DNA from: Acuticoccus sediminis
GTDB taxonomy: Bacteria > Pseudomonadota > Alphaproteobacteria > Rhizobiales > Amorphaceae
Direction of reading: 5' to 3'
Assembly (NCBI RefSeq): GCF_003258595.1
Contig: NZ_QHHQ01000003.1
Span: 62,001 to 126,000 of the forward strand
Length of the DNA: 64,000 nucleotides
Shown here in pieces: positions 32,160-46,140 of this stretch. Position 1 is the stretch's first letter. Each line of letters begins with the position of its first letter. Made by a program: the position numbers and the translations under genes. Under the pieces are notes generated by a model that saw only the letters and a list, made by a program, of their open reading frames with translations, did no database searches and was not told where the DNA came from.

Positions 32160-33902
<1,743 letters not shown>

Positions 33903-34617: not shown

Positions 34618-34776
34618 ATGGCCGGGCAGTTCGTCGAGGGGCTGGTGGTGTCCGGCGTTCCCGTCGGCCATGCGTTTGCGCCGCTCCGCGGCATCGGCGG
34701 GACGCTGGCGGGGTTCCGGAGCGTCCGGCTCGTTGACCGGTGGGTGCCCGGACCCGCGGAGCGGCCGGTGCGCTAG
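34618..34776 (+). pseudogene. Truncated tandem copy of the preceding membrane protein
   Basis: A 52-codon frame from the ATG at 34618 with a purine-rich ribosome site. Its product aligns with the last 45 residues of the upstream protein: GLVVSGVPVGHAFAPL against GLVFGVPFVHLFTPI, and SVRLVDRWVP against SVKLVNRWLP. The first two thirds of the gene are missing. This is best read as the remnant of a tandem duplication; a short expressed protein is not excluded. Confidence 0.55.
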
Positions 34777-36011
34777 TCGCGCAGCCAGCCGTCCAGGAAG
34801 ACCACGCCCTCGCAGCCGGCGAAGCGGGCGAGGCGGGTAAGCTCCGCCTCCAGCGCCCGCGCCCTCGCGGCGCCGAATCGCACGCCCGGCTCCGGCCACA
34901 CCCCGGTCACCTCGAGCGCGCCGGAGGTTCCGCGCGTCATGTCGATCCGACCGACGAAGCGGTCCCCCTCAAGGATCGGAAACACGTAGTAGCCGTAGCG
35001 GCGCTTCGGCTTCGGCACGTAGATCTCGATCCGGTAGTGGAAGTCGAACAGGGCCTCCGTGCGGCGGCGGTCGCGCACCATGGGGTCGAAGGGGCTGACG
35101 ATGCGAAGCCGCGCGGTCGGACCGGCGGTCTCCAGCGGGGCGCCGTCGGCAAAGGCGTAGGCCGGGCGCACGGTGCCGTCCGCGAGGGTGATCCCGATGC
35201 GGCGCAGCCGGCCGGCGTTGCGCGACAGCCAGCCCTCCGCCTCGGCGGTGGTGATCAGCTCGAAGAAGTCGGCGAGCTGGCGGGGCGTGGCGAAGCCGAG
35301 CCGCTCCAGCGCCGCCTCGGCTGCCCAGTCGACGATCTCCTCGTCGGTGACCTCGTGGGCGTGGATATCCGGCGGAACGACGCGTTCGGTGAGGTCGTAG
35401 ACCTTCTGGAACGCCTCGCGGTGGCAGACGGAGAGCTGCCCGGTGCGCCAGAGGAACTCGAGCGCGACCTTGCTGGGCTGCCAGTTCCACCACCCGGCGG
35501 AGGACTTCTCCTCCTCGAAGTCGCGCGACAGGGTGGGGCCGTTGTCGCGGATGTGGGCGAGGACCTCGTCGCACTGGCTGAGGTCGCGGCCGTGCCGGTC
35601 GCCCCAGCGCTCGCGCAGGGCCGCCTCGGCGGTGCGGAAGCGGCGCCGCCAGTACGGCCAGAACGCCATCGGAATGAGGCTGGCGTCGTGCGTCCACCCC
35701 TCGAACAGCAGCCGCTGGTCGAGGAGGCGGGTCAGCGTGCCGGGACGGTAACGATGGTGGCGGGCGTAGAGGATCATGTGATGCGCCCGCGCGACGGTGG
35801 ACACCGAATCCACCTGCACGAAGCCGATCTGGCGGATCGTATCGCTCACGGTCGCGGGGTCGGCGGGGCCGGTCGGCGGTGCGGCCAGCCGGTGGCGCGT
35901 CAGGAAGACGTGCCGGGCCTCGGCATTGCTGAGGATGAGCTCGGGCGCCGCCGCGCGTGGGGCGCGCGGTCGGGTCGGGCTGGGGAGGGGGGAAGGATCG
36001 CGCTCGGTCAC
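34773..36011 (-). CDS. YcaQ-like DNA glycosylase (HTH_42 / winged-helix family)
   Basis: 412 residues from a GTG at 36009-36011 that overlaps the stop of the His-rich gene (GTGA). The protein belongs to the HTH_42 family, whose members remove alkylated or crosslinked bases from DNA. The catalytic region is QIGFVQVDSVSTVARAHH; the Q-V-D text fits the Q-x-D form of E. coli YcaQ, while AlkZ has Q-x-Q. Other family blocks are LFEGWTHDASLIPMAFWPYW and VSPFDPMVRDRRRTEALF. Its place as last gene of a guanidine operon is unusual. Confidence 0.85.
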   Translation of the reverse strand: MTERDPSPLPSPTRPRAPRAAAPELILSNAEARHVFLTRHRLAAPPTGPADPATVSDTIRQIGFVQVDSVSTVARAHHMILYARHHRYRPGTLTRLLDQRLLFEGWTHDASLIPMAFWPYWRRRFRTAEAALRERWGDRHGRDLSQCDEVLAHIRDNGPTLSRDFEEEKSSAGWWNWQPSKVALEFLWRTGQLSVCHREAFQKVYDLTERVVPPDIHAHEVTDEEIVDWAAEAALERLGFATPRQLADFFELITTAEAEGWLSRNAGRLRRIGITLADGTVRPAYAFADGAPLETAGPTARLRIVSPFDPMVRDRRRTEALFDFHYRIEIYVPKPKRRYGYYVFPILEGDRFVGRIDMTRGTSGALEVTGVWPEPGVRFGAARARALEAELTRLARFAGCEGVVFLDGWLRD

Positions 36012-36523
36012 ACCGGGGAGAGAGCGCGAGCCTCCTCGAAGGTCAACTCCATCGTCGCCCTGCCGTCGAAATAGACGAAGGCGAGCGATGAGCGCTTGGA
36101 GACCATCGCCGCCGGGAGCGGGTCGTAGCGGAACGAGCCGCCGCCGAGATGGGGCGTCAGCGAAGCCATGTCCGCCGAGGTGCCGAGCGCGACGCGCAGC
36201 AGCTTCAGCTCCGCCCCGTCGGCCCGGCGGCCGACGAAGGGGATCCCGGCGAGGCGCAGGAAGCTCGTCGGGTCGCCGGTGTGCCGGAAGCCCTCGACGA
36301 AGGCCGTTTCGACGAGGTCGAGGTCCGGCTCGTGCGGGGCGTGTTCGTGGACGTCGCCGCCGTGGGGGTCGTGCGGCGTCTGCCACTGCACGGTGCCGCG
36401 GTTGTGGCCGTGTGCATGGGAATGGGAATGGGAATGGGAATGCGCCTCGGCGTGGGCATGCGCGTGGCCGCCGGCGGGGCGGACGGCGTACGGGTTGTAG
36501 GGCTCGTCGTGGCCGCGGTGCAT
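36008..36523 (-). CDS. Histidine-rich protein, possible metal chaperone for the guanidine hydrolase
   Basis: 171 residues. Seventeen of the first 64 residues are His, mostly in an alternating run (residues 20-40, HSHSHSHSHAHGH), then HDPHGGDVHEHAPHEPD. The C-terminal 100 residues look folded (LKLLRVALGTSADMASLTPH, SSLAFVYFDGRATMELTFEE) but match no family I know. The ATG is 4 bases after the hydrolase stop, with GAGAAGG as ribosome site, so the two proteins are made together. His-rich tails of this kind store or deliver Ni, Zn or Co (compare HypB and UreE). A role in loading the hydrolase is an inference. Confidence 0.75.
   Translation of the reverse strand: MHRGHDEPYNPYAVRPAGGHAHAHAEAHSHSHSHSHAHGHNRGTVQWQTPHDPHGGDVHEHAPHEPDLDLVETAFVEGFRHTGDPTSFLRLAGIPFVGRRADGAELKLLRVALGTSADMASLTPHLGGGSFRYDPLPAAMVSKRSSLAFVYFDGRATMELTFEEARALSPV
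36415..36442. repeat. Hexanucleotide tandem repeat inside the His-rich gene
   Basis: Four to five copies of gggaat/catggg-type hexamers encode the His-Ser run. Such repeats can slip, so the length of the His tract may vary between strains. Confidence 0.7.
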
Positions 36524-36527
36524 GGGG

Positions 36528-37742
36528 TCAGGCCTTCTCGTAGTCGATGGGCTTGTCGATGATGGACCGGTGCTTGCCGAGCGTGCCGTGGGCGCACATC
36601 GACCCGAGCGCCTCGACCGCGACGCGCACGCCCATCAGCGCGGTGATGTCGGACGTGTCGTAGGGCGGCGAGACCTCGACGACCTCGAGGCCGCAGATCC
36701 CGGGAGCGCAGACGAGGCCGAGGATCTTCAGCGCCTCGCGCGGCAGGAAGCCGCCGGGCTCGGGCCAGCCGGTGCCGGGAACGAAGCCGCAGTCGAGGCT
36801 GTCGACGTCGAAGGAGATGTAGACCGCGTCCGCGTCCTTCCAGGCGAGCTCCAGCGCGATCTCGGCCGTCTTCTCGAGGCCGTACTCCTCGATGTCCTCG
36901 ATGGTCAGCACGTTCGTCTGGCGCCGGAATGCCTCCTTCGCGCCGGGGCGGGGGACCTGCCAGCCGCCGATCCCGAGTTGCACGAGGTTCACCGCCGGCA
37001 CGTTCGGAAGGTTCGTCGCCCAGAACCAGGGCGTCGTGTGCATCCGCTCGTCGAGATCCTTCTCCTGGATGTCGATGTGACGGTCGAAGTGGATGATGCC
37101 GATGCGCTTGGAGGTGTTCTCCGCGATGCCGCGCACGCAGGGAAAGCCGATCGAGTGGTCCCCGCCGAGGATGATCGGCAGCGCGCCCGAGGCGAAGACA
37201 TGGCCGACGCCGCGGCTGATCTGGTCGAACGACTTTTCGAGGTTGCCGGGGATCGTGAAGACGTCGCCCGCGTCGCACAGGGTCATCTGCTCGCGCAGGT
37301 CGACGCCGAGCTCGTAGTTGTAGGTCGTGTAGAGCGCGGAGATGCGGCGGATCCCCTGCGGCCCGAAGCGGGTTCCTGGCCGGTAGGTGGTGCCGGAATC
37401 GAACGGGACGCCGAGCACCGCGGCGTCGTACTTGGCGACGTCCCTGATGTTCTCCACGTAGGGCGCCTTCAGGAAGGTGTTGATGCCGGCGAAGTGCGGC
37501 AGCTCGCCCCGCGCGAAGGTCGGGATCGTCCGGTCTTCCAAAGAGGGCGCCCCGGGCAGCCCCATCTCCAGCGCCCACTTCTGCTCGCGCGCCCAGGCGC
37601 TGCCGGGCAGCTTGTCCTCCGCCTCGAGCGCCTTCCAGCCGCGCGTCTCGCGGGCGTTGAAGTCCGGATGGTGCGCCCGCGCCGGCGCCGGCCGGCTACG
37701 GGCGCCGGCCTTCCGGGACAGGCGGACGGGTTGGTCGTTCAT
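36528..37742 (-). CDS. gdmH: Agmatinase-family ureohydrolase, probable guanidine hydrolase
   Basis: 404 residues, about 100 longer than E. coli agmatinase, with an N-terminal extension before the core. Metal-binding blocks of the arginase fold are present: GGDHS (193-197), FDRHIDIQ (219-226; the usual text is D-A-H-x-D) and SFDVDSLD (310-317), plus GLEVVEVSPPYDTSD. The operon starts with a guanidine-I riboswitch and holds a guanidine/urea-type ABC importer, the same set of functions as the Synechocystis locus of the Ni-dependent guanidine hydrolase GdmH. So urea plus ammonia from guanidine is the likely reaction; agmatine or another guanidino compound is the alternative. The ghaA/ghaB nickel helpers are not in the window. 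The start overlaps the ATPase gene by 47 bases. Confidence 0.75.
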   Translation of the reverse strand: MNDQPVRLSRKAGARSRPAPARAHHPDFNARETRGWKALEAEDKLPGSAWAREQKWALEMGLPGAPSLEDRTIPTFARGELPHFAGINTFLKAPYVENIRDVAKYDAAVLGVPFDSGTTYRPGTRFGPQGIRRISALYTTYNYELGVDLREQMTLCDAGDVFTIPGNLEKSFDQISRGVGHVFASGALPIILGGDHSIGFPCVRGIAENTSKRIGIIHFDRHIDIQEKDLDERMHTTPWFWATNLPNVPAVNLVQLGIGGWQVPRPGAKEAFRRQTNVLTIEDIEEYGLEKTAEIALELAWKDADAVYISFDVDSLDCGFVPGTGWPEPGGFLPREALKILGLVCAPGICGLEVVEVSPPYDTSDITALMGVRVAVEALGSMCAHGTLGKHRSIIDKPIDYEKA

Positions 37743-38538
37743 GAGAGACGTCCTTCACGTTCGTGTCCGTCACGAGGGTGAGATGCGGCGCCGCGGGAGC
37801 GGGCGCCTCCACCGGGACGGGAGTCTTGAGGGGAATGTCGTAGGTGATCGTCGCGCCGTAGGCGTGCGGGTGCTGCGGGTCGTGACGGATCTTGTCGAAG
37901 ACGAGGACGCGGGTGCCGAGCTCGAAGGCTTCCTTGATGTCGTGGGTGACCATGAAGACGGTCATCCCCGTCTCTCGCCAGAGCTCGGTCAGGAGCTCCT
38001 GCATCTCGCGTCGGGTGCCGGGGTCGAGCGCGCCGAAAGGCTCGTCGAGGAGCAGGATCTTCGGCCGGCGCAGCAGGGCCTGGCCGAGCGCCAGACGCTG
38101 CTGCATGCCGCCGGAGAGCTGCGCCGGCCAGCGCCCTGCCGCGTGGGTGAGGCCGAGGCGCTGCATCATCGCCCCCGCTTTCTCGCGCGCGGCGCGGCGT
38201 CGGGCACCGAAGAGGCGGGCGAACGGGCCGCCGGTCTCGATCTCGAATGGCAGCGTCAGGTTTTCCATCACCGTGAGGTGCGGGAAGACCGAGCACTTCT
38301 GGAACACGATGCCCCGGTCCGGGTCCGGCTCGGCGGCGATCGGCGCGCCTTCGATGAGGACGGCACCAGCGGTCGGCCGCTCCTGACCGAGGAGGATGCG
38401 CAGGAACGTCGACTTGCCGCAGCCCGACGCGCCGACGATCGTCACCATCGCGCCTTCGGCGACGTCCATCGAGACGCGCTCCAGGATCGGAAATTCGCCA
38501 TAGGTGACGCCGAGCCGGCGCACCTCAACGAAACTCAT
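37696..38538 (-). CDS. NitT/TauT-type ABC transporter ATP-binding protein (guanidine importer)
   Basis: 280 residues from the ATG at 38536-38538, which overlaps the permease stop (ATGA). Walker A GASGCGKST (36-44), Q-loop IVFQKCSVFPHL, signature LSGGMQQR, Walker B ILLLDEPFGALDP and switch His in MVTHDIKEAF are all intact. After VLVFDKIRHDPQHPHAYGA comes a tail of about 60 residues rich in Pro, longer than in most SsuB/TauB proteins; its end overlaps the hydrolase gene in another frame. Confidence 0.9.
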   Translation of the reverse strand: MSFVEVRRLGVTYGEFPILERVSMDVAEGAMVTIVGASGCGKSTFLRILLGQERPTAGAVLIEGAPIAAEPDPDRGIVFQKCSVFPHLTVMENLTLPFEIETGGPFARLFGARRRAAREKAGAMMQRLGLTHAAGRWPAQLSGGMQQRLALGQALLRRPKILLLDEPFGALDPGTRREMQELLTELWRETGMTVFMVTHDIKEAFELGTRVLVFDKIRHDPQHPHAYGATITYDIPLKTPVPVEAPAPAAPHLTLVTDTNVKDVSHERPTRPPVPEGRRP

Positions 38539-39356
38539 AGGCCGTCCCCCGTCAGATGCGCCCAGGGGAACAGCCGGCGTGACAGGATGGCAAGCACCCT
38601 GTCGATCACGTACGCGAGCACGGTGATCCACACGACGTACGGGATGATGACGTCCATCGCGAGGTAGCGGCGGACGAGGAAGATGCGGTAGCCGAGCCCC
38701 TCCGTCGCCGCGATCGCCTCCGCCGAGACGAGGAAGATCCAGGCCGGGACCAGCCCCATCCGCACCGCCCGGATCAGGTGGGGCCACATCTGCGGCAGCA
38801 CCACGCGCATGGTGAGCTGCAGCGAACTGGCGCCGAGCGTCTGGGCGCGGATGATCTCCTCGCGCGGCAGGTCGAGGATCGCCTGGGCGACGGCGCGGAT
38901 CATCAGTGGCGCGGTGCCCACCACGATGAGCCCCACCTTCGCCGCCTCGCCGAGCCCCAGCACGATGAAGAGGATCGGCAGCACCGTGATCGGCGGGATC
39001 AGCGAGAACGCCGCCACGAAGGGCGAGAAGAACGCCCTTCCCAGCGGCAGGATGCCGATGACCGCGCCGATCACCACAGCCAGCAGCGCGGCGATCGCCA
39101 TGCCGTAGAAGAGGCGTTCCAGGCTCGCCGCGGTATCGACCCACAGGAGGTAGTCGCCGGAGCGCTTGTCCGCCTCGAAGGCCATGCGGACGAAGGCCTC
39201 CGCCATGGCCGAGAGCGACGGCAGGAGCTTGTCCGCCGGGTTCTCGGCGCGGCGGATCCCACTGCCGACGGCGTAGGCGCCGATCGCCAGCGCGAACGGG
39301 ATCGCGCCGATGAGGATGGCGACGACGCGGCCGGGCTTCCGGTTGATGAGGCGCAT
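38535..39356 (-). CDS. NitT/TauT-type ABC transporter permease (guanidine importer)
   Basis: 273 residues with six membrane segments. The ATPase loop is REEIIRAQTLGASSLQLTMR, the SsuC/TauC form of the EAA motif. SLIPPITVLPILFIVLGLGE is the typical middle segment of the nitrate/sulfonate/taurine class. It lies 27 bases after the binding protein gene and overlaps the ATPase gene. A homodimer is expected. Confidence 0.92.
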   Translation of the reverse strand: MRLINRKPGRVVAILIGAIPFALAIGAYAVGSGIRRAENPADKLLPSLSAMAEAFVRMAFEADKRSGDYLLWVDTAASLERLFYGMAIAALLAVVIGAVIGILPLGRAFFSPFVAAFSLIPPITVLPILFIVLGLGEAAKVGLIVVGTAPLMIRAVAQAILDLPREEIIRAQTLGASSLQLTMRVVLPQMWPHLIRAVRMGLVPAWIFLVSAEAIAATEGLGYRIFLVRRYLAMDVIIPYVVWITVLAYVIDRVLAILSRRLFPWAHLTGDGL

Positions 39357-39383
39357 GGGCCGGCGGCCGCCCGGGAATCCGGC

Positions 39384-40460
39384 CTAGAGCTCCTGGTCCG
39401 CCGCCATCTGCATGAAGGTGCTGTCAAAGCGCAGCTTCACGTTGTTCTCGTCGCCGGTGACGGACCCGTCCGGATATTCGATGCCGACGAAGTCCGCGCT
39501 CGGCGCGCCGGTGCCGAGGATGCCGTGGTCGAAGAGGAACGAGGCGACGAAGGTCATCGTCTCCGGCAGCCCTTCGCCGCCGACGAAGTCGACCGCTTCC
39601 TCGGCCATGTAGAACATCGCGGTGGAGTCGAGCTGGCTCTTGTAGCCGGCGATGTCGGTGCCGGAGGCGGTCGCCATCGCGGTCAGGGCGTCGATGTCGT
39701 CCGCCTCCATCAGCGCCATCGCCTCGTACCAGGCGCCGACGAGCGCCTTCCCGAAGTCGGGGTTGTCCTTCAGCGTCTCGGTGTTGACGACCATCATGTC
39801 GATGATCTCGCCGGGGATCTGCGAGGAATCGAAGACCTCGTGGGAATCCGGCATGCCGAGGATCTCCGACAGCAGCGGGTTCCAGGTCACGACCGCCGTG
39901 ACGTCGGGCGTCGTGTAGGCGGCGACCATGTCGGCGTCGGAGGTGTTGACGACCGTGATGTCGCGTTCGGAGAGCTCCACCGTCTCGAGGGCGCGGGCGA
40001 GCAGGTAGTGCGAGACCGACAGCTCCACGAGGTTGACGCGCTCGCCCTTGATGTCGGCGAGCTGGTCCTTGCCCTTCAGGATGATGCCGTCGTTGCCGTC
40101 CGAGTAGTCGCCGACGATGAGCGCGGTCGTGTCGACGCCGCCGCCCGCGGGGATGGAGAGGGCGTCCATGTTGGTCATGCTGCAGCCGTCGTACTGGCCG
40201 GCGGTGTACTGGTTGATGGACTCGACGTAGTCGTTGATCTGCACCGCCTCGATGGTGATGCCGTACTTGTCGGCCCACTTCTTTAGGATGCCGGAGTCCT
40301 GCATGTACCCCCACGGCATCCAGCCGACATAGATGGACCAGCAGACGGAGAAGTCCTTCTTCTCCTCGGCGCTGGCGGGCTGGACGATGGTCGTGGCGCC
40401 CAGAAACGCGCCCAGTGCGATGCTGGCGAGCGCTGCGCGGGCCGCGGTCAACTTCCTCAT
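39384..40460 (-). CDS. ABC transporter substrate-binding protein, urea/guanidine-associated type
   Basis: 358 residues from the ATG at 40458-40460, with GAGGAGGAGAAGG directly upstream. The signal peptide ends at PASA (residue 31). The mature part opens FSVCWSIYVGWMPWGYMQ and continues SINQYTAGQYDGCSMTNMDA, a pattern of the periplasmic proteins found next to urea/guanidine carboxylase genes (TIGR03427-like). It is the first gene behind the guanidine-I riboswitch, so guanidine is its likely ligand. Confidence 0.88.
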   Translation of the reverse strand: MRKLTAARAALASIALGAFLGATTIVQPASAEEKKDFSVCWSIYVGWMPWGYMQDSGILKKWADKYGITIEAVQINDYVESINQYTAGQYDGCSMTNMDALSIPAGGGVDTTALIVGDYSDGNDGIILKGKDQLADIKGERVNLVELSVSHYLLARALETVELSERDITVVNTSDADMVAAYTTPDVTAVVTWNPLLSEILGMPDSHEVFDSSQIPGEIIDMMVVNTETLKDNPDFGKALVGAWYEAMALMEADDIDALTAMATASGTDIAGYKSQLDSTAMFYMAEEAVDFVGGEGLPETMTFVASFLFDHGILGTGAPSADFVGIEYPDGSVTGDENNVKLRFDSTFMQMAADQEL

Positions 40461-40462
40461 CA

Positions 40463-40549
40463 CCTTCTCCTCCTCATGCCGGCAGGTGCCGGATTGCCGA
40501 ACCGGCAGCGTGCCGGATCCCGAATATGCGCGTGAGAAGGACCGGGAGA
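40463..40549 (-). promoter_or_regulatory. Riboswitch expression platform and ribosome site
   Basis: Read on the minus strand: TCTCCCGG (40549-40542) can pair with the aptamer segment CCGGGAGA (40588-40581). Immediately after it CCTTCTC (40540-40534) can pair with GAGAAGG of the ribosome site (40469-40463). Two small hairpins CCGGCA-CGC-TGCCGG (40516-40502) and CCGGCA-CC-TGCCGG (40492-40479) lie between. No T-run is seen, so control of translation is more likely than termination. Confidence 0.55.
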
Positions 40550-40574
40550 CGGACCCGCTCTGCGCGGAACCGTG

Positions 40575-40680
40575 CGGCGTTCTCCCGGGATTTTGGCCCG
40601 CCGTGTAACCCCACCACCGGTGGAGCATGCGTCTCTCGGACCAGTCACGCTTCCCGAGGGAAGCGCCGGAACCCTAGACG
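40575..40680 (-). ncRNA. Guanidine-I riboswitch (ykkC class)
   Basis: Minus strand, 115 bases before the binding protein start. The conserved blocks come in the right order and spacing: CTAGGGTTCCGG (40677-40666), then GACTGGTCCGAGAGACGC, then TACACGGCGGGCCAAAATCC and CCCGGGAGAACGCC. CUAGGGUUCCG, CUGGUCCGAGAG, ACACGG and CCCGGGAGA are the signature strings of the ykkC subtype 1 aptamer that binds guanidinium. It usually turns genes on when guanidine is present. This decides the function of the whole operon down to 34773. Confidence 0.95.
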
Positions 40681-40794
40681 CACCGCACGACCTGACAAAA
40701 GCAAAGCCTATGCCAGATTGCCGAGGCTCGACGGCGAAGAGCCGGCGCGGGTCGGCCGGACGCGATGGCCCGCTCCGTCGGAGAGGGGCCGGGC

Positions 40795-41439
40795 CTACCC
40801 GCGCAGGCGGGCGAGGCGGCGGCGCAGGCGGTCGCGGCCGCGCGAGAGGCGAAGCTTCACCGTCGCGACCGATCGGCCCGAGGCGGCCGCCGCGTCCGCG
40901 AGAGTGAAGCCCTCCAGGTGGCAACGCTCGATGGCCTGCCGCTCCTCGTGCGGGAGCGTGCGGACCACGGCGCGCACCGCGGCCGCGGTCTCGCCCGCGC
41001 CGATCGCGTCGGGTGCGGCGAGCTCCTCGCTGATCGGCAGCGTCGGGACGGCGCTGGCGGCCCGGGCGGCGTCGATCTTGCGGTGGGCGAGCGTCGTGAT
41101 CCACGCGGTCCCGCGTGTGCTGCCGTCGAACCGCCGGGCGGCGTTCCAGACCTCCAGCATGGTGTCCTGGGCGATGTCCTCGGCGGCGACGGGATCGTCG
41201 AGCAGGCGCGCGGCGAACCTCTCGAGACGCGGCGCCATCGTCGTGTAGAGACGATGGAACGCCCGCACGTCCCCGCCCGCGACCGCGCGGATGAGGCGTG
41301 CCACCGGGTCGCGCGCCGGCGGCGGGGGGTGCTCGGTGGAGCGGGCGCCCATCTCGACTGGCCGACCCGCGCGAGGACGATCGGCGCGCGGCTGACCGGG
41401 ACGGGGCCGCTCGAGATGGACGAGAGTGGCAACGGCCAT
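40795..41439 (-). CDS. ECF-type RNA polymerase sigma factor
   Basis: 214 residues from the ATG at 41437-41439. Region 2 is seen in FHRLYTTMAPRLERFAARLL and DIAQDTMLEVWNAARRFDGS, followed by TRGTAWITTLAHRKIDAARA. Region 4 is AIERCHLEGFTLADAAAASG and SVATVKLRLSRGRDRLRRRL. The N-terminal 45 residues are Pro/Arg-rich and not conserved. No anti-sigma gene is adjacent in the expected place downstream, so control may be through another partner or through its leader hairpin. It resembles SigK-like ECF factors. Confidence 0.9.
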   Translation of the reverse strand: MAVATLVHLERPRPGQPRADRPRAGRPVEMGARSTEHPPPPARDPVARLIRAVAGGDVRAFHRLYTTMAPRLERFAARLLDDPVAAEDIAQDTMLEVWNAARRFDGSTRGTAWITTLAHRKIDAARAASAVPTLPISEELAAPDAIGAGETAAAVRAVVRTLPHEERQAIERCHLEGFTLADAAAASGRSVATVKLRLSRGRDRLRRRLARLRG

Positions 41440-41453
41440 GGTCGCGATCTCCC

Positions 41454-41488
41454 GTTGTGCTGGGGCAGCGCGCCGGCTGCCGCACAAC
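41454..41488 (-). promoter_or_regulatory. Hairpin in the leader of the sigma factor gene
   Basis: GTTGTGC/GCACAAC and GGCAGC/GCTGCC stack into a 13-bp stem with one three-base bulge and a six-base loop. It ends 14 bases before the ATG, just in front of the GGGAGA ribosome site. It could be an RNA control element or a protein operator. Confidence 0.5.
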
Positions 41489-41726
41489 AGGTGGGTCGTC
41501 CAAAAGCGCAAAACCGTGCCGGCGAGCACAGACGCCGACGGGAAAGCGCCCGTGCCCTTTGGATGTCGACTTCGGCACCCGCTGCGAGCGCCGCATCGCC
41601 CGCCCCGAGGGCGCGGCGCCAGTCCTGGTGGAGATGATTTGCGAGGGCTTCTTGGCGGACCCGCCCGGTGCCCCGGCGGGCTCCTGAACGGGTATGTCCG
41701 AGCGGGAGCAGGGCTCGCGAAACGTC

Positions 41727-41762: not shown

Positions 41763-42206
41763 TCAGTCCTTGGTGAGCGCCTTCTCGATCTCGTCGATCG
41801 GGTGGTTGGTCAGCTCCTTGGCGACGTCGAAGACGATCTTCTCCTCGACTTCCTTGTGGAGCGCCTTGCGCAGCTCGCCGAGGACCACCGGCGGGGCGGC
41901 GATGATCAGCTTGTCGTACCGGCCCTTGTGGGCCGCCTTGTAGAGCCTGTCGGCGATCTCCCGGGCGAACCGCTCCTTTTCGAGGCGGTGCCAGTCGGTC
42001 TCCTCGACCGCGCTCTTGTGGCCAGGGCCGTTGTCGTGACGGCGGCCGGGGCTGTCGGTGCCCTGTTCGCGGGTGGGCGGGTTCTCCTGCACCATCTCGC
42101 GCACGACGGTGAGGTTGGGGAACCCCTCGTCGATGCCGTTCTTCAGGAAGAGGGCCTTTTCGCCGTCACCCACCAGAACCCAGGCTTCGGCTGGAATCGT
42201 TCGCAT
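41763..42206 (-). CDS. Host attachment family protein (baeRF-like)
   Basis: 147 residues, cytoplasmic. It has WVLVGDGEKALFLKNG at the start, WHRLEKERFAREIADRLYKA in the middle and DKLIIAAPPVVLGELRKALH near the end. These blocks match the family called host attachment protein after an Agrobacterium mutant; the fold is related to release-factor domains (baeRF), and a role at ribosomes or in stress is suspected. It is the last gene of the rpiA-TRAP-dipeptidase operon. The true function is not known. Confidence 0.82.
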   Translation of the reverse strand: MRTIPAEAWVLVGDGEKALFLKNGIDEGFPNLTVVREMVQENPPTREQGTDSPGRRHDNGPGHKSAVEETDWHRLEKERFAREIADRLYKAAHKGRYDKLIIAAPPVVLGELRKALHKEVEEKIVFDVAKELTNHPIDEIEKALTKD

Positions 42207-42233
42207 GTTGGCCTCCCGATAGTCTTCGAGAGA

Positions 42234-43304
42234 TCAATGTGTGTCCGGAGCGCTCGTTCCAAGGGCCAGCGACTGTGTACGCTTTGTCACATCGAGCCAG
42301 TTGCGGTAGCAGATCGCGTCGACGAGATCGGCCGAATAGCCCGCCTCGATCATCACGTCGACGAGACGCGGGAGGCCGGCGACGTCGCTGATTGCGGCCG
42401 GAATCACCGCGCCGTCGAAGTCGGAGCCGAGCGCCACGCCGCGCGGGCCGAGCTTTTCCAGCATGTGGTCGAGATGGCGCCGCATCGCGTCGAGCGGGGT
42501 GTTCGGGTCGCGCCGGCCGTCGTCGCGCAGGAAGAAGGTGGCGAAGTTCAGTCCGGCGACGCCCTCGGTGTCGCGGATCGCGTCCATCTGTGCGTCGGTC
42601 AGGTTGCGGGAGGACGGGGAAAGGACGTGCGCGTTGGAATGCGTCGCCACGATCGGCGCGTCGGACACGCGCACCACGTCCCAGAAGCCCTTCTCGTTGA
42701 GGTGGCTGCAGTCGACCATCACACCGAGCTGGTTGCACGCCTTGACGAGGGCGACGCCGCGGTCGGTCAGCCCTTCGCCGATGTCGGGCGTCGAGGGGAA
42801 GCGGAAGGGGACGCCGTAGCCGAAGACGGTCGGTCGGCTCCAGACGAGGCCGAGGGAGCGTACGCCGGCGGCGTACAGCGTCTCCAGCTCGTCGAGGTCG
42901 GGGCCGATCGCCTCGGCGCCCTCCATGTGGAGCATCATCGCGAAGGCGCCCGCATCGTTCGCCGCCTGCACCTCGTCGGCCGAACGGCAGATCCGGACCG
43001 AGCCCTTGGACGCCCGCTCGATCCGGAAGGCGATGGCGAGCTGGGCGAGGGTGACGTGAAGCGCACGCTCCTGCGAAAGGCCCACCATAGGCGCCTCGAC
43101 GCTGCCTTGCGGCTCGGCCGGCTTGGGCCGCTGCTCGTCCATGACGAAGGTGGCGAAGATGCCGCCGGCAAGACCGCCCTGGCGCGCCCGCACGAGGTCG
43201 AGGTGCCCCTCGGCGTTGAGGCCGAGGAAACGCTCGCCGGTCCGATCGCGGCGCCACAGGCGCAAGAGCACGTCGTTGTGCCCGTCGAAGATGCGTTGGT
43301 TCAT
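42234..43304 (-). CDS. Membrane dipeptidase (renal dipeptidase family, M19)
   Basis: 356 residues from the ATG at 43302-43304. These zinc enzymes cut dipeptides, often with a D-residue, or related amides. Metal ligands can be seen: FDGHNDVLL (His9, Asp11), the bridging Glu in MLHMEGAEAIG, His in VDCSHLNEKG and VATHSNAH, and GSDFDGAVIP. No signal peptide is present, so the enzyme is probably cytoplasmic. It follows a TRAP binding protein gene by 47 bases, which suggests the imported acid is a dipeptide-like compound. Confidence 0.92.
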   Translation of the reverse strand: MNQRIFDGHNDVLLRLWRRDRTGERFLGLNAEGHLDLVRARQGGLAGGIFATFVMDEQRPKPAEPQGSVEAPMVGLSQERALHVTLAQLAIAFRIERASKGSVRICRSADEVQAANDAGAFAMMLHMEGAEAIGPDLDELETLYAAGVRSLGLVWSRPTVFGYGVPFRFPSTPDIGEGLTDRGVALVKACNQLGVMVDCSHLNEKGFWDVVRVSDAPIVATHSNAHVLSPSSRNLTDAQMDAIRDTEGVAGLNFATFFLRDDGRRDPNTPLDAMRRHLDHMLEKLGPRGVALGSDFDGAVIPAAISDVAGLPRLVDVMIEAGYSADLVDAICYRNWLDVTKRTQSLALGTSAPDTH

Positions 43305-43351
43305 AGGCTTCCTGCGCGATCCGGACAGTCTCACGCCAAGGCTGGAGATCG

Positions 43352-44329
43352 TCAACGGGCCGCTTCGATGGCTTTGTAGGCATCCATCGCCGCCGGGCTG
43401 AGGCCCGAGACGTAGGACTGGACGAAGGGGGCGACGGCCTCGCGCCAGGGAGCCTGGTCGACCTCGACGAGCTGGGCGCGCTGGCCGATGGCGCGTGTCA
43501 TCGCGCTGTCCTGCTCCTCTTCGGCCAGCTTGTTGAAGTAGGCGGCCGCCTGCTGGGCGGAGGACTCGAAGAGCTTCTGGTCCTCCTCCGGGAGGCTCTC
43601 CCAGAAGTTGCGATCGAAGTAGACGACGCCGATCGCCCAAATGTGCGCCGTTTCGCTGAGGACCGGTGCCACTTCGAAGAGCTTCAGCGCCTCGTATCCG
43701 GACTTGGTGAGGTCCATCGCCTCGACGACGCCGGTGCCGAGCGCGGTGTATGTCTCGGTGATCGGCAGAGCGGTCGGGTTGGCGCCCAGCGAGCGCCACA
43801 GCGCGATGTGCAGGTCGCTCTCCAGTACGCGCATGGTCAGGCCCTTCACGTCCTCCGGCTTGGTGAGCGGGCGGTCCGACAGGAGGTGGCGGGCGCCGAA
43901 GATGATGAACGCCGGCGTCTCGAAACCCTGCTCCCGGTAGGCGGCGCGAAGCTGCTTGCCGAGCGGGCCCTTCATCGCCGACATGATCTGGTCGCGGCCG
44001 GAGAAGACGAACGGGAGGTCGAGCACCGCGCCCTCGGGGACCCAGGTGGTGAGGTTGGCCACCGTCGACAGGGCGCCGGTGATGGAGCCGAGGCGTACGC
44101 CTTCGGCCTCTTCCTTCTCGCCGCCGAGCGCGCCGTTGGTGACGATGTTGAACTTGTAGACGCCCGGGCGGCCGCTCTCGACGAGGGCGGCGAAGCGCTC
44201 CCAGAATTTGCTCTGGGGCTTTTCCGGACCGTACTGCGAGGTGACGGTGAGGGTGTCCTGGGCGTTCGCGGGCGCTGCGAGACAGGCCGCGACCAGGAGT
44301 GCGGCGATCAAACGGATCATGCGGATCAT
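43352..44329 (-). CDS. TRAP transporter substrate-binding protein (DctP family)
   Basis: 325 residues; signal peptide MIRMIRLIAALLVAACLAAP ends near ANA (residue 23). The mature protein has the DctP core: GALGGEKEEAEGVRLGSITG, LTMRVLESDLHIALWRSLGA with the carboxylate-binding Arg, and TALPITETYTALGTGVVEAM. It should capture an organic anion in the periplasm for the fused permease encoded 17 bases upstream. The ligand is not readable; the linked dipeptidase hints at an acyl-amino acid or dipeptide. Confidence 0.92.
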   Translation of the reverse strand: MIRMIRLIAALLVAACLAAPANAQDTLTVTSQYGPEKPQSKFWERFAALVESGRPGVYKFNIVTNGALGGEKEEAEGVRLGSITGALSTVANLTTWVPEGAVLDLPFVFSGRDQIMSAMKGPLGKQLRAAYREQGFETPAFIIFGARHLLSDRPLTKPEDVKGLTMRVLESDLHIALWRSLGANPTALPITETYTALGTGVVEAMDLTKSGYEALKLFEVAPVLSETAHIWAIGVVYFDRNFWESLPEEDQKLFESSAQQAAAYFNKLAEEEQDSAMTRAIGQRAQLVEVDQAPWREAVAPFVQSYVSGLSPAAMDAYKAIEAAR

Positions 44330-44346
44330 GGAGCGTGCTCCTTCAG

Positions 44347-46140
44347 TCAAACCAATCCGGCGAGCCCGGAAGTGAGGGCCGGCAGGGCGATCAGGACGCC
44401 GAGGCCAGCGATCAGGGCGATCAGATAGGGCAGGACGGCGAGATAGACGCCCTTCATTTGTGTCACATCCTTCACCACCAGCACCAGGATGCCGACCGGC
44501 GGGGTCAGTCCCCCGAGGAGGAGCGCGACCGTGAGGACGACGGTGGCGTGGATCATGTCGCCACCGACCGCCGGCACCAGGACCGGCATGAGGAGGAGAA
44601 TCGCCGCGCCCACGTCGAGCACGGTGCCGATGAGGAGGGCGATGCCCGTCGCGGCGACGAGCGCGACCCAGACCGGACCGTCGGGGAGGAATGTGGCGGC
44701 GTCTAGGCCGCTGGTGGCGAATATGAAGCCGACGGGGGCGGCCGCACCGATGAGGAGCGCGACGCGGCCGGACTGCCGCGCCGCATCGCGGAGCGCGGCG
44801 AGGAGCGGGCCGGCGCCGGCCCGTACGGCGAAGAGGGCGGACATCGCGACCGCGAGGAGCCCCGCCTCGACGGACGTCACGAGCCCCAGCCGCAGGCCGC
44901 CCAGCACCGCCACCGCGATCGCCAGCGGTGGCAGCAGACCCCACAGGACGTGCGGGGTAGCCGGCTGTCCGGAGGGCTGCGGGGAACCGGAGACCGGGGT
45001 CGCGCCGGCGGCCGGTGACGGAGCGGAGCCGTCGGCCCGTGCCGGACTCGGGATCAAGGAGGACGGGGCGCCGACGGGGGTGATGCGGACGGCGAACCAG
45101 AGCGTCGCGGCGAGGACGACGCCCGCGCCGAGCCCGGCGACCCAGAGGGCGCCGACGGACTGGTCGGTGGACGCTGCCGCGAGGAGGAGCGCGATCGACG
45201 GCGGCAGGATGTTGGGCAGCACCGCCGAGGCGGCGGTGATCGCCGCGGCCCGCGCGGCCGGATAGCCCGCGGCGACCATCGCCGGGACGAGGAGGCGGGC
45301 GCCGAGCGCGGCGTCGGCGATGGACGAGCCCGACACGCCGCCGAAGAGGGCGCTGGCGAACACGTTCGCCTCGCCGAGCGCGCTGCGGCGGCGGCGCGCG
45401 AACCAGCCTGCCGCGGCAACGAGTCGCTCGCCGATCCCGCCCGCCAGCATCAGCGCGGCGGAAAGGATGAAGAGCGGGATGGCGAGGAGCACGTAGGGCG
45501 ACAGGCCGCGCATCAGGTTCTGCGCCAGCGCCGCCTCGGAGAGGTGCCCCGGCGCGACCGCGACGCCGGCGACCAGCGCGAGCGCCACCGGCACCCGCGC
45601 CCAGAGCGCAACGGCGAAGACGGCGACACCTGCGAGCGGTCCCTGCGGCGGGATCGGCACCAGGCTGATGGCGACCCCCACCGCGATACCCGCCACCGCC
45701 GAGGGCCGGCGCAGCGCCGCCACGAGGGCCAGCACCGCGAACCCCGCGCCGACCACGTAGCGCCAGGCGCGCGGGATCGCGAGTACCGGCTCGACCCCGC
45801 CGACACGCCCCGCCGCGTCCGCGAGGCCGGCGGCGAGCGTCGCCGCGGCAAAGCCCGCGATCAGCGCGGCGAGGCCGGCGCGCGGGCCGCTCTCGTCGCT
45901 GGCGAGGAGGGTCGGGAGGGTGGCGAAGGCGAGCGCGCCGAAGGCCCAGCCGGCGACCAGCGCGGCGCCGACGACCGGCAGGTCGAAGACCCGCGCGGCG
46001 ACGTTGAGCGACAGCGCCGCCACGAGCACCGCCAGCAGCAGCGTCGCCGCCACGTCCGCCGCCGCCTCGACGCCGCCGGGGATCCTCGCAGCGCCGGCGC
46101 GCATCGTGCGCCTCTCGCGGTCCTGGTCGCTCTCGGGCAC
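44347..46140 (-). CDS. TRAP transporter permease, DctQ-DctM fusion-like
   Basis: 597 residues from a GTG at 46140; an ATG at 46104 with GAGAGG upstream is a good alternative. The first 170 residues hold about five hydrophobic segments in the place of DctQ. The large DctM domain follows: LSPYVLLAIPLFILSAALML, the family hallmark FGGVSGSSIADAALGARLLV, and VLPNILPPSIALLLAAASTD. A Pro/Ser/Ala-rich linker (about 373-403) interrupts the DctM part, which is unusual. GGLTPPVGILVLVVKDVTQM closes the second half. It starts 5 bases after rpiA. Confidence 0.85.
   Translation of the reverse strand: MPESDQDRERRTMRAGAARIPGGVEAAADVAATLLLAVLVAALSLNVAARVFDLPVVGAALVAGWAFGALAFATLPTLLASDESGPRAGLAALIAGFAAATLAAGLADAAGRVGGVEPVLAIPRAWRYVVGAGFAVLALVAALRRPSAVAGIAVGVAISLVPIPPQGPLAGVAVFAVALWARVPVALALVAGVAVAPGHLSEAALAQNLMRGLSPYVLLAIPLFILSAALMLAGGIGERLVAAAGWFARRRRSALGEANVFASALFGGVSGSSIADAALGARLLVPAMVAAGYPAARAAAITAASAVLPNILPPSIALLLAAASTDQSVGALWVAGLGAGVVLAATLWFAVRITPVGAPSSLIPSPARADGSAPSPAAGATPVSGSPQPSGQPATPHVLWGLLPPLAIAVAVLGGLRLGLVTSVEAGLLAVAMSALFAVRAGAGPLLAALRDAARQSGRVALLIGAAAPVGFIFATSGLDAATFLPDGPVWVALVAATGIALLIGTVLDVGAAILLLMPVLVPAVGGDMIHATVVLTVALLLGGLTPPVGILVLVVKDVTQMKGVYLAVLPYLIALIAGLGVLIALPALTSGLAGLV

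Follow-up and report, generated by a model that had tools for sequence, protein, structure and literature searches.

The minus strand of a 64,000-nucleotide stretch of the Acuticoccus sediminis genome (contig NZ_QHHQ01000003.1, positions 62,001 to 126,000; hereafter referred to as the window) carries, from position 40688 to 34773, a guanidine-I riboswitch followed by six co-directional, closely spaced genes. These genes encode, in order, the binding protein, permease and ATPase of an ATP-binding cassette (ABC) importer, a guanidinase of the GdmH clade, a histidine-rich (His-rich) protein and an AlkZ-like DNA glycosylase. We consider it likely that this operon provides nitrogen from guanidine, and that the His-rich protein acts in it as a nickel loader, in place of HypA/HypB. 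The guanidine pathway itself is a known system; what is new is the regular presence of a His-rich partner instead of HypA/HypB. The six open reading frames (ORFs), which were assigned to families by Pfam and NCBIfam scans, agree in membership, order and tight spacing with an earlier note on this DNA (34773..40680). The spacings calculated from the coordinates are, in gene order, a 27-bp gap, overlaps of 4 and 47 bp, a 4-bp gap and a 4-bp overlap. The note's account of guanidine sensing, import and hydrolysis in a locus devoid of HypA/HypB stands, but its grouping of the His-rich gene and the glycosylase together as added genes does not.

By score, the predicted hydrolase falls within the clade of the characterised guanidinases. 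Its best solved relatives are the enzymes of Nitrospira inopinata (9fek) and Synechocystis (7esr/7oi1), with scores of 537 and 532 bits and identities of 63 and 64% over the aligned stretches; the next, a guanidinobutyrase, scored 164.5 bits. The accessible text of one report (PMC11410670) gives Thr97 and Trp305 as the specificity residues of the Synechocystis guanidinase, and names Thr105, His222, Trp313 and Glu344 for that of Nitrospira. The counterparts in the window enzyme, T119, H235, W326 and E356 (numbering transferred by reading of the alignment), were invariant in a nine-row alignment (A1). The guanidine reading is well supported, because the closest solved proteins are two guanidinases and the specificity residues are retained, and the uptake and hydrolysis of guanidine proposed earlier gain support from the same observations. 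The genome holds one GdmH gene; four other matches displayed only 27–35% identity. Two annotated alphaproteobacterial relatives have been automatically named as members of the agmatinase family, as might be expected if the operon served another guanidino compound, such as agmatine or guanidinobutyrate. However, the guanidine-I riboswitch, the guanidinase clade, the T/W signature and the score obtained with the agmatinase equivalog model TIGR01230 (164.2, below the cut-off of 174.3) make such a role scarcely credible, and agmatine was rejected as the substrate on these grounds. Neither GdmH nor the His-rich protein had a relative in the viral and phage collections.

The ykkC/guanidine-I aptamer that had been read by eye on the minus strand was recovered with the RF00442 covariance model, at 82.3 bits (above 63), and was the sole Rfam hit in the window at gathering scores. 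A riboswitch over the cut-off was found in 13 of 14 GdmH-bearing genomes, each time ahead of gdmH at a distance of about 3 kb or less, judging from the coordinates, indicating that the riboswitch of this locus is not there by chance; the remaining genome was G039. The predicted leader fold contains a competing hairpin, in which TCTCCCGG pairs with the 3' end of the aptamer over eight bases. A complement of at least 7 nucleotides within 45 nucleotides was present in 38 of 65 leaders, including that of the window (from 81 sequences, in 16 of which the script located no aptamer), versus 2.7 expected from mononucleotide shuffles, and such a hairpin is therefore likely at the 3' end of the aptamer. 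The whole window leader folds no better than shuffled sequences (z of -0.6 and -0.3), and the T-run downstream of the hairpin is weak. In the predicted fold, CCTTCTC pairs with part of the ribosome-binding-like stretch ahead of the binding-protein gene.

The His-rich gene was consistently found behind gdmH. A scan of genome contigs with GdmH gave at least 567 matches, of which we collected the best 80 (the source of every count out of 80 given here); the His-rich gene followed gdmH in all 80 loci (79 at E 1e-8, the last at 2e-8). The gap between the two genes was at most 40 bases in 65 of the 78 loci with an assigned start, with a maximum of 344. With a single His-rich sequence as query, 99 of 100 loci gave a hit, 99 hits in all. 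By their record titles, 79 of the 80 loci belong to Alphaproteobacteria or to an unranked Pseudomonadota metagenome-assembled genome, and one to Anaerolineae; the phylum sample matching this last record gave four matches, with positions and scores equal to Pseudomonadota ones. The titles of records with a His-rich gene behind the guanidinase include Mesorhizobium, Sinorhizobium, Bradyrhizobium, Roseibium and others.

The genome samples gave a congruent picture. Among 61 relatives, GdmH (E 1e-100) was found in eight genomes and the His-rich protein (E 0.001) in nine; all eight GdmH genomes were among the nine, with the two genes adjacent. In the Pseudomonadota sample, GdmH (E 1e-100) and the His-rich protein (E 1e-5) occurred in the same seven of 398 genomes, again adjacent; the hypergeometric probability of this coincidence, 3e-15, ignores kinship and overstates independence, because the sets overlap and share descent. 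The Alphaproteobacteria sample contained a GdmH-like protein (E 1e-80) in 13 of 385 genomes, with the His-rich gene behind it in 11 (G000, G332 and nine new ones). The two exceptions, G803 and G815, form a divergent subgroup (57–58% identity); the specificity Trp is a Thr in G815, and the G803 contig ends before that residue. Taken together, 23 of the 25 genomes with a GdmH-like match in these three samples have the His-rich gene. The three samples overlap with the 80 loci and are related to them by descent, several of the 80 assemblies being present as sampled genomes too, and the sets are thus not independent. In a plasmid sample of 72,556 records, GdmH (E 1e-90) was detected in 11, including four actinobacterial loci, and the His-rich protein (E 1e-4) in seven, which were exactly the alphaproteobacterial GdmH carriers, with adjacent positions.

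Of the 80 loci, 16 had no binding protein, and for 13 of these the 7-kb upstream flank was complete; because all 16 retained the His-rich gene, its presence goes with the enzyme and not with the importer. The His-rich gene cannot be considered a mere addition, as had been suggested earlier: it lies behind gdmH in every examined alphaproteobacterial locus encoding the guanidinase Trp, which makes it a core part of the system and the best candidate for a nickel helper. The same distributions bear on another possibility, in which the protein would store or detoxify nickel or zinc in general, in the manner of Hpn, and be co-regulated with the operon by chance. Its composition resembles that of known His-rich metal stores, and HupE genes lie nearby in some loci, but in the 398-genome sample and the plasmids the protein scored only alongside GdmH, whereas a general store would be expected without GdmH as well. 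We judge this explanation to be improbable.

Consistent with the earlier note, no HypA/HypB-like helper was identified among the six genes with Pfam and NCBIfam. No homologue of HypA was detected in the 80 loci (three seeds, E 1e-4) and, apart from the His tails and some UreG-like ORFs, none of HypB either (four seeds, E 1e-4). The UreG-like ORFs matching HypB seeds came from two Methylopila loci; UreG was assigned by eye in L053 and L077. Five of the 14 GdmH genomes had HypA over the cut-off and four had HypB, on contigs other than that of gdmH or, in G019, about 250 kb away; neither exceeded the cut-off in the window genome or its two GdmH-bearing congeners. Sub-cut-off HypB matches were present in all 14 genomes, the better ones being UreG-like. 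A HupE/UreJ gene, sought with a seed from L025 (PF04955, 148 bits), occurred in 30 of the 80 loci, behind gdmH in 25 and ahead of it in five, under seven genus names. In the available portions of one article (PMC11399263), HupE is presented as a transporter that takes up nickel, GdmH is said to be activated by nickel chaperones, and the related Ni2+ metformin hydrolases are described as requiring HypA/HypB co-expression. Urease alpha exceeded the cut-off in 13 of the 14 genomes, including that of the window, in which it lies at G000:C3:158398, about 32 kb past the window end (C3:126000), with a UreG-like match at C3:162270.

The His-rich protein has 17 His within residues 1–66 and lacks Cys throughout. 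In its AlphaFold2 model, secondary structure is lacking up to residue 66, after which a C-terminal domain (about residues 66–168) is predicted with confidence, the predicted local distance difference test score being 94–98 per block from residue 71 and about 50–65 before it. In 76 aligned members, the tail contains a median of 17 His (range 4–28) and varies in length and sequence, whereas seven domain residues (F75, D84, S87, R90, L108, P124 and P137) are invariant; the domain has no conserved His or Cys in these members. The alignment of His-rich proteins A2 omits L046 (start uncertain), L058 (containing Ns), L105 (tail-less), and L063 and L074 (start unassigned); in alignment A3, L105 was restored and ten more near-duplicate loci were omitted. 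At E 1, Pfam yielded no family for the protein, and its only NCBIfam row was at chance level (8 bits versus a cut-off of 650). There was no match to HypA (PF01155) at E 1 in Pfam or among the 76 members at E 0.1, none to the HypB model TIGR00073 or a GTPase family, and no Pfam hit indicative of UreE, for which fold comparisons also yielded nothing confident. Several His tails matched the His-rich stretch of HypB, which we interpret as compositional. The gene product is annotated as a “hypothetical protein” on two annotated plasmid records, and no earlier description of such a partner was found in the accessible passages of one open-access library.

The protein might instead be bound stably to GdmH as its second subunit, or assist its folding, with the tail serving only as a metal buffer or being incidental. 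The constant part of the family is indeed the domain, devoid of conserved His and Cys, a few homologues are nearly without a His tail, and metformin hydrolase needs a second subunit, according to the available text on that enzyme (PMC11399263). By contrast, the accessible account of the Nitrospira guanidinase characterises it as a homohexamer (PMC11410670), and most members of the family keep a His-rich tail despite its varying length and sequence. On this evidence, a subunit or folding role seems unlikely.

Several observations nevertheless weigh against a nickel-loading function. Adjacency and co-inheritance would also fit a structural subunit or a regulator. The tail is short or absent in L105 and L175, and partly so in L170, L171 and L173; it therefore cannot be essential everywhere, and the domain is the constant part. 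One of the 61 relatives, G026, gave a weak His-rich hit (E 1.7e-4) with an internal stop and no GdmH, although its fetched stretch had no hit at 1e-5. In G039 (L028 7455-8981), gdmH lacks approximately the first 106 codons while the His-rich ORF beside it is intact; this genome has neither a riboswitch nor a urease over the cut-off, and no importer lies beside gdmH. Two Rubrobacter and one Nonomuraea predicted guanidinases, with Thr and Trp retained, had no HypA/HypB and no recognised His-rich partner in the 6.5–8 kb plasmid stretches searched, the chromosomes lying outside this search; an opposite-strand 607-codon frame with 9 His in 40 in the Nonomuraea stretch was left out of the partner check. 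Finally, the comammox guanidinase works without known chaperones, in the portions of the report available (PMC11410670), so that a dedicated loader is not universal. Together with the helper-less actinobacterial enzymes, this suggests that the helper may improve activity rather than permit it.

We propose the following scheme for the operon. Guanidine would bind the leader aptamer, leading to expression of the operon, as the class of the riboswitch suggests; the ABC transporter would import guanidinium; GdmH, judging from its clade and specificity residues, would convert guanidine to urea and ammonia; and urease would split the urea. The His-rich protein would act post-translationally on GdmH: its flexible tail would hold nickel, and its small domain would dock on the enzyme, allowing the metal to pass to the active site. 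The domain may thus be read as a docking module and the tail as a nickel reservoir, on the model of UreE, the tail of which is such a reservoir. We also lean towards the view that the protein is the founder of a new family of nickel metallochaperones: GTP-independent loaders, each combining a flexible His tail with a small docking domain, which arose in Alphaproteobacteria as a non-orthologous replacement for HypA/HypB serving the guanidinase alone.

Table 1. Features of the guanidine locus of the window (window coordinates)
Feature	Position	Strand	Basis
Guanidine-I (ykkC) riboswitch aptamer	40580..40688	-	RF00442, 82.3 bits vs gathering score of 63, E 3.9e-13, full length
Putative expression platform	40542..40588	-	TCTCCCGG (40542-40549) complementary to aptamer 3' end CCGGGAGA (40581-40588)
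Purine-rich ribosome-binding-like stretch before binding-protein ATG	40463..40475	-	Sequence
Substrate-binding protein, probably for guanidinium	39384..40460	-	TIGR03427, 560 bits vs cut-off of 334
ABC transporter permease	38535..39356	-	PF00528 (BPD_transp_1)
ABC transporter ATPase	37696..38538	-	PF00005 (ABC_tran)
Guanidinase (GdmH clade, ureohydrolase superfamily)	36528..37742	-	Arginase family; closest solved relatives are guanidinases
His-rich partner protein, putative nickel-loading factor	36008..36523	-	No Pfam/NCBIfam family over cut-off; behind gdmH
AlkZ/YcaQ-like DNA glycosylase, probably a passenger	34773..36011	-	PF06224, 224 bits

The family model matched by the binding protein is named “putative urea ABC transporter substrate-binding protein”. 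Homologues of the importer components were present in 64 (binding protein), 66 (permease) and 68 (ATPase, >150 bits, with L082 marginal) of the 80 loci. In ten loci (L072, L074, L080, L084, L087, L088, L090, L091, L093 and L094), the riboswitch motif immediately precedes gdmH and the flank lacks a binding protein of the window kind; a hupE-like ORF lies upstream in five of the ten and downstream in L072. Divergent GdmH-like enzymes were also encountered. That of L179 (1240-2682), in which the specificity Trp is replaced by Thr, carries a His-rich insertion, TTHHDHSHMHD, near the position of residue 245 of the window enzyme, and that of L178 (1420-2286) has a similar insertion near the same residue; this segment is perhaps a metal-gathering loop within the enzyme. 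No gene for a His-rich partner was found in the stretches of these two loci seen. On a Rubrobacter plasmid (L122 7986-15403), a guanidinase-like gene is accompanied by a sodium:solute symporter gene, urease genes and an opposite-strand formamidase gene, perhaps constituting a guanidine-to-ammonia island.

The start of the glycosylase gene overlaps the stop of the His-rich gene by 4 bp, and the two genes also adjoin in G004, in which the glycosylase gene lies directly behind. An involvement of the glycosylase in the pathway, for example in the repair of guanidine-related DNA damage, could be imagined on this basis. However, the gene was found in only one of the 80 loci, a same-genus locus corresponding to the assembly of G002 itself, in which it lies about 1.7 kb behind the His-rich gene, and in G032 it lies upstream, on the opposite strand. 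A pathway role is thus very improbable and was rejected on the basis of distribution; the glycosylase, presented earlier as an added operon gene, is probably a neighbour or passenger and is better not counted among the pathway genes. Beyond the operon, a gene for an extracytoplasmic function (ECF)-type sigma factor (40795-41529, minus strand) ends some 100 bases ahead of the riboswitch, and genes for a baeRF-family protein, an M19 dipeptidase and a tripartite ATP-independent periplasmic (TRAP) transporter (DctP, DctM) lie further upstream (41763-46140, minus strand). On the opposite strand, a gene for an extracellular solute-binding protein (SBP_bac_1; 32160-33902, plus strand) is preceded by ORFs resembling sugar-type ABC permeases by eye.

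Among known His-rich nickel proteins are UreE, with its tail, CooJ and Hpn, which the window protein calls to mind by general likeness. The N-terminal stretch of HypB is flexible and His-rich, as is the tail of the window protein, but the latter matches no GTPase, HypA, HypB or UreE model. The helpers of Synechocystis-type guanidinase operons are known as GhaA and GhaB. As described in the accessible parts of three reports (PMC8390497, PMC12186494, PMC10119275), the operon of Synechocystis GdmH (Sll1077) and its picocyanobacterial kin resemble that of the window in having a guanidine riboswitch and the same kind of ABC importer genes, together with a Ni2+-dependent guanidinase, the window enzyme belonging to the same clade by sequence. 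Those operons hold homologues of hypA and hypB, or accessory Ni2+-delivery proteins, whereas the window operon has no HypA/HypB and an unrelated His-rich protein after gdmH. The operons for metformin and dimethylguanidine hydrolases (MefH, DmgH) encode a nickel ureohydrolase with a neighbouring hupE, as in some of the 80 loci, but the available description is of a two-subunit enzyme with other substrates and HypA/HypB loading (PMC11399263). Recognition of the His-rich partner should help annotators to separate guanidine use from “agmatinase”, and its gene could contribute to full activity when these guanidinases are expressed. The comammox locus of Nitrospira inopinata shares with the window a guanidine-I riboswitch, a GdmH-clade enzyme and the lack of nickel chaperones in the region, but has an APC permease where the window has an ABC importer (PMC11410670, in the parts available). 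The same text calls nickel loading of the comammox enzyme, a guanidinase without HypA/HypB, unclear, with no chaperone found in the genome; the His-rich protein provides a concrete candidate for a nickel helper in another lineage.

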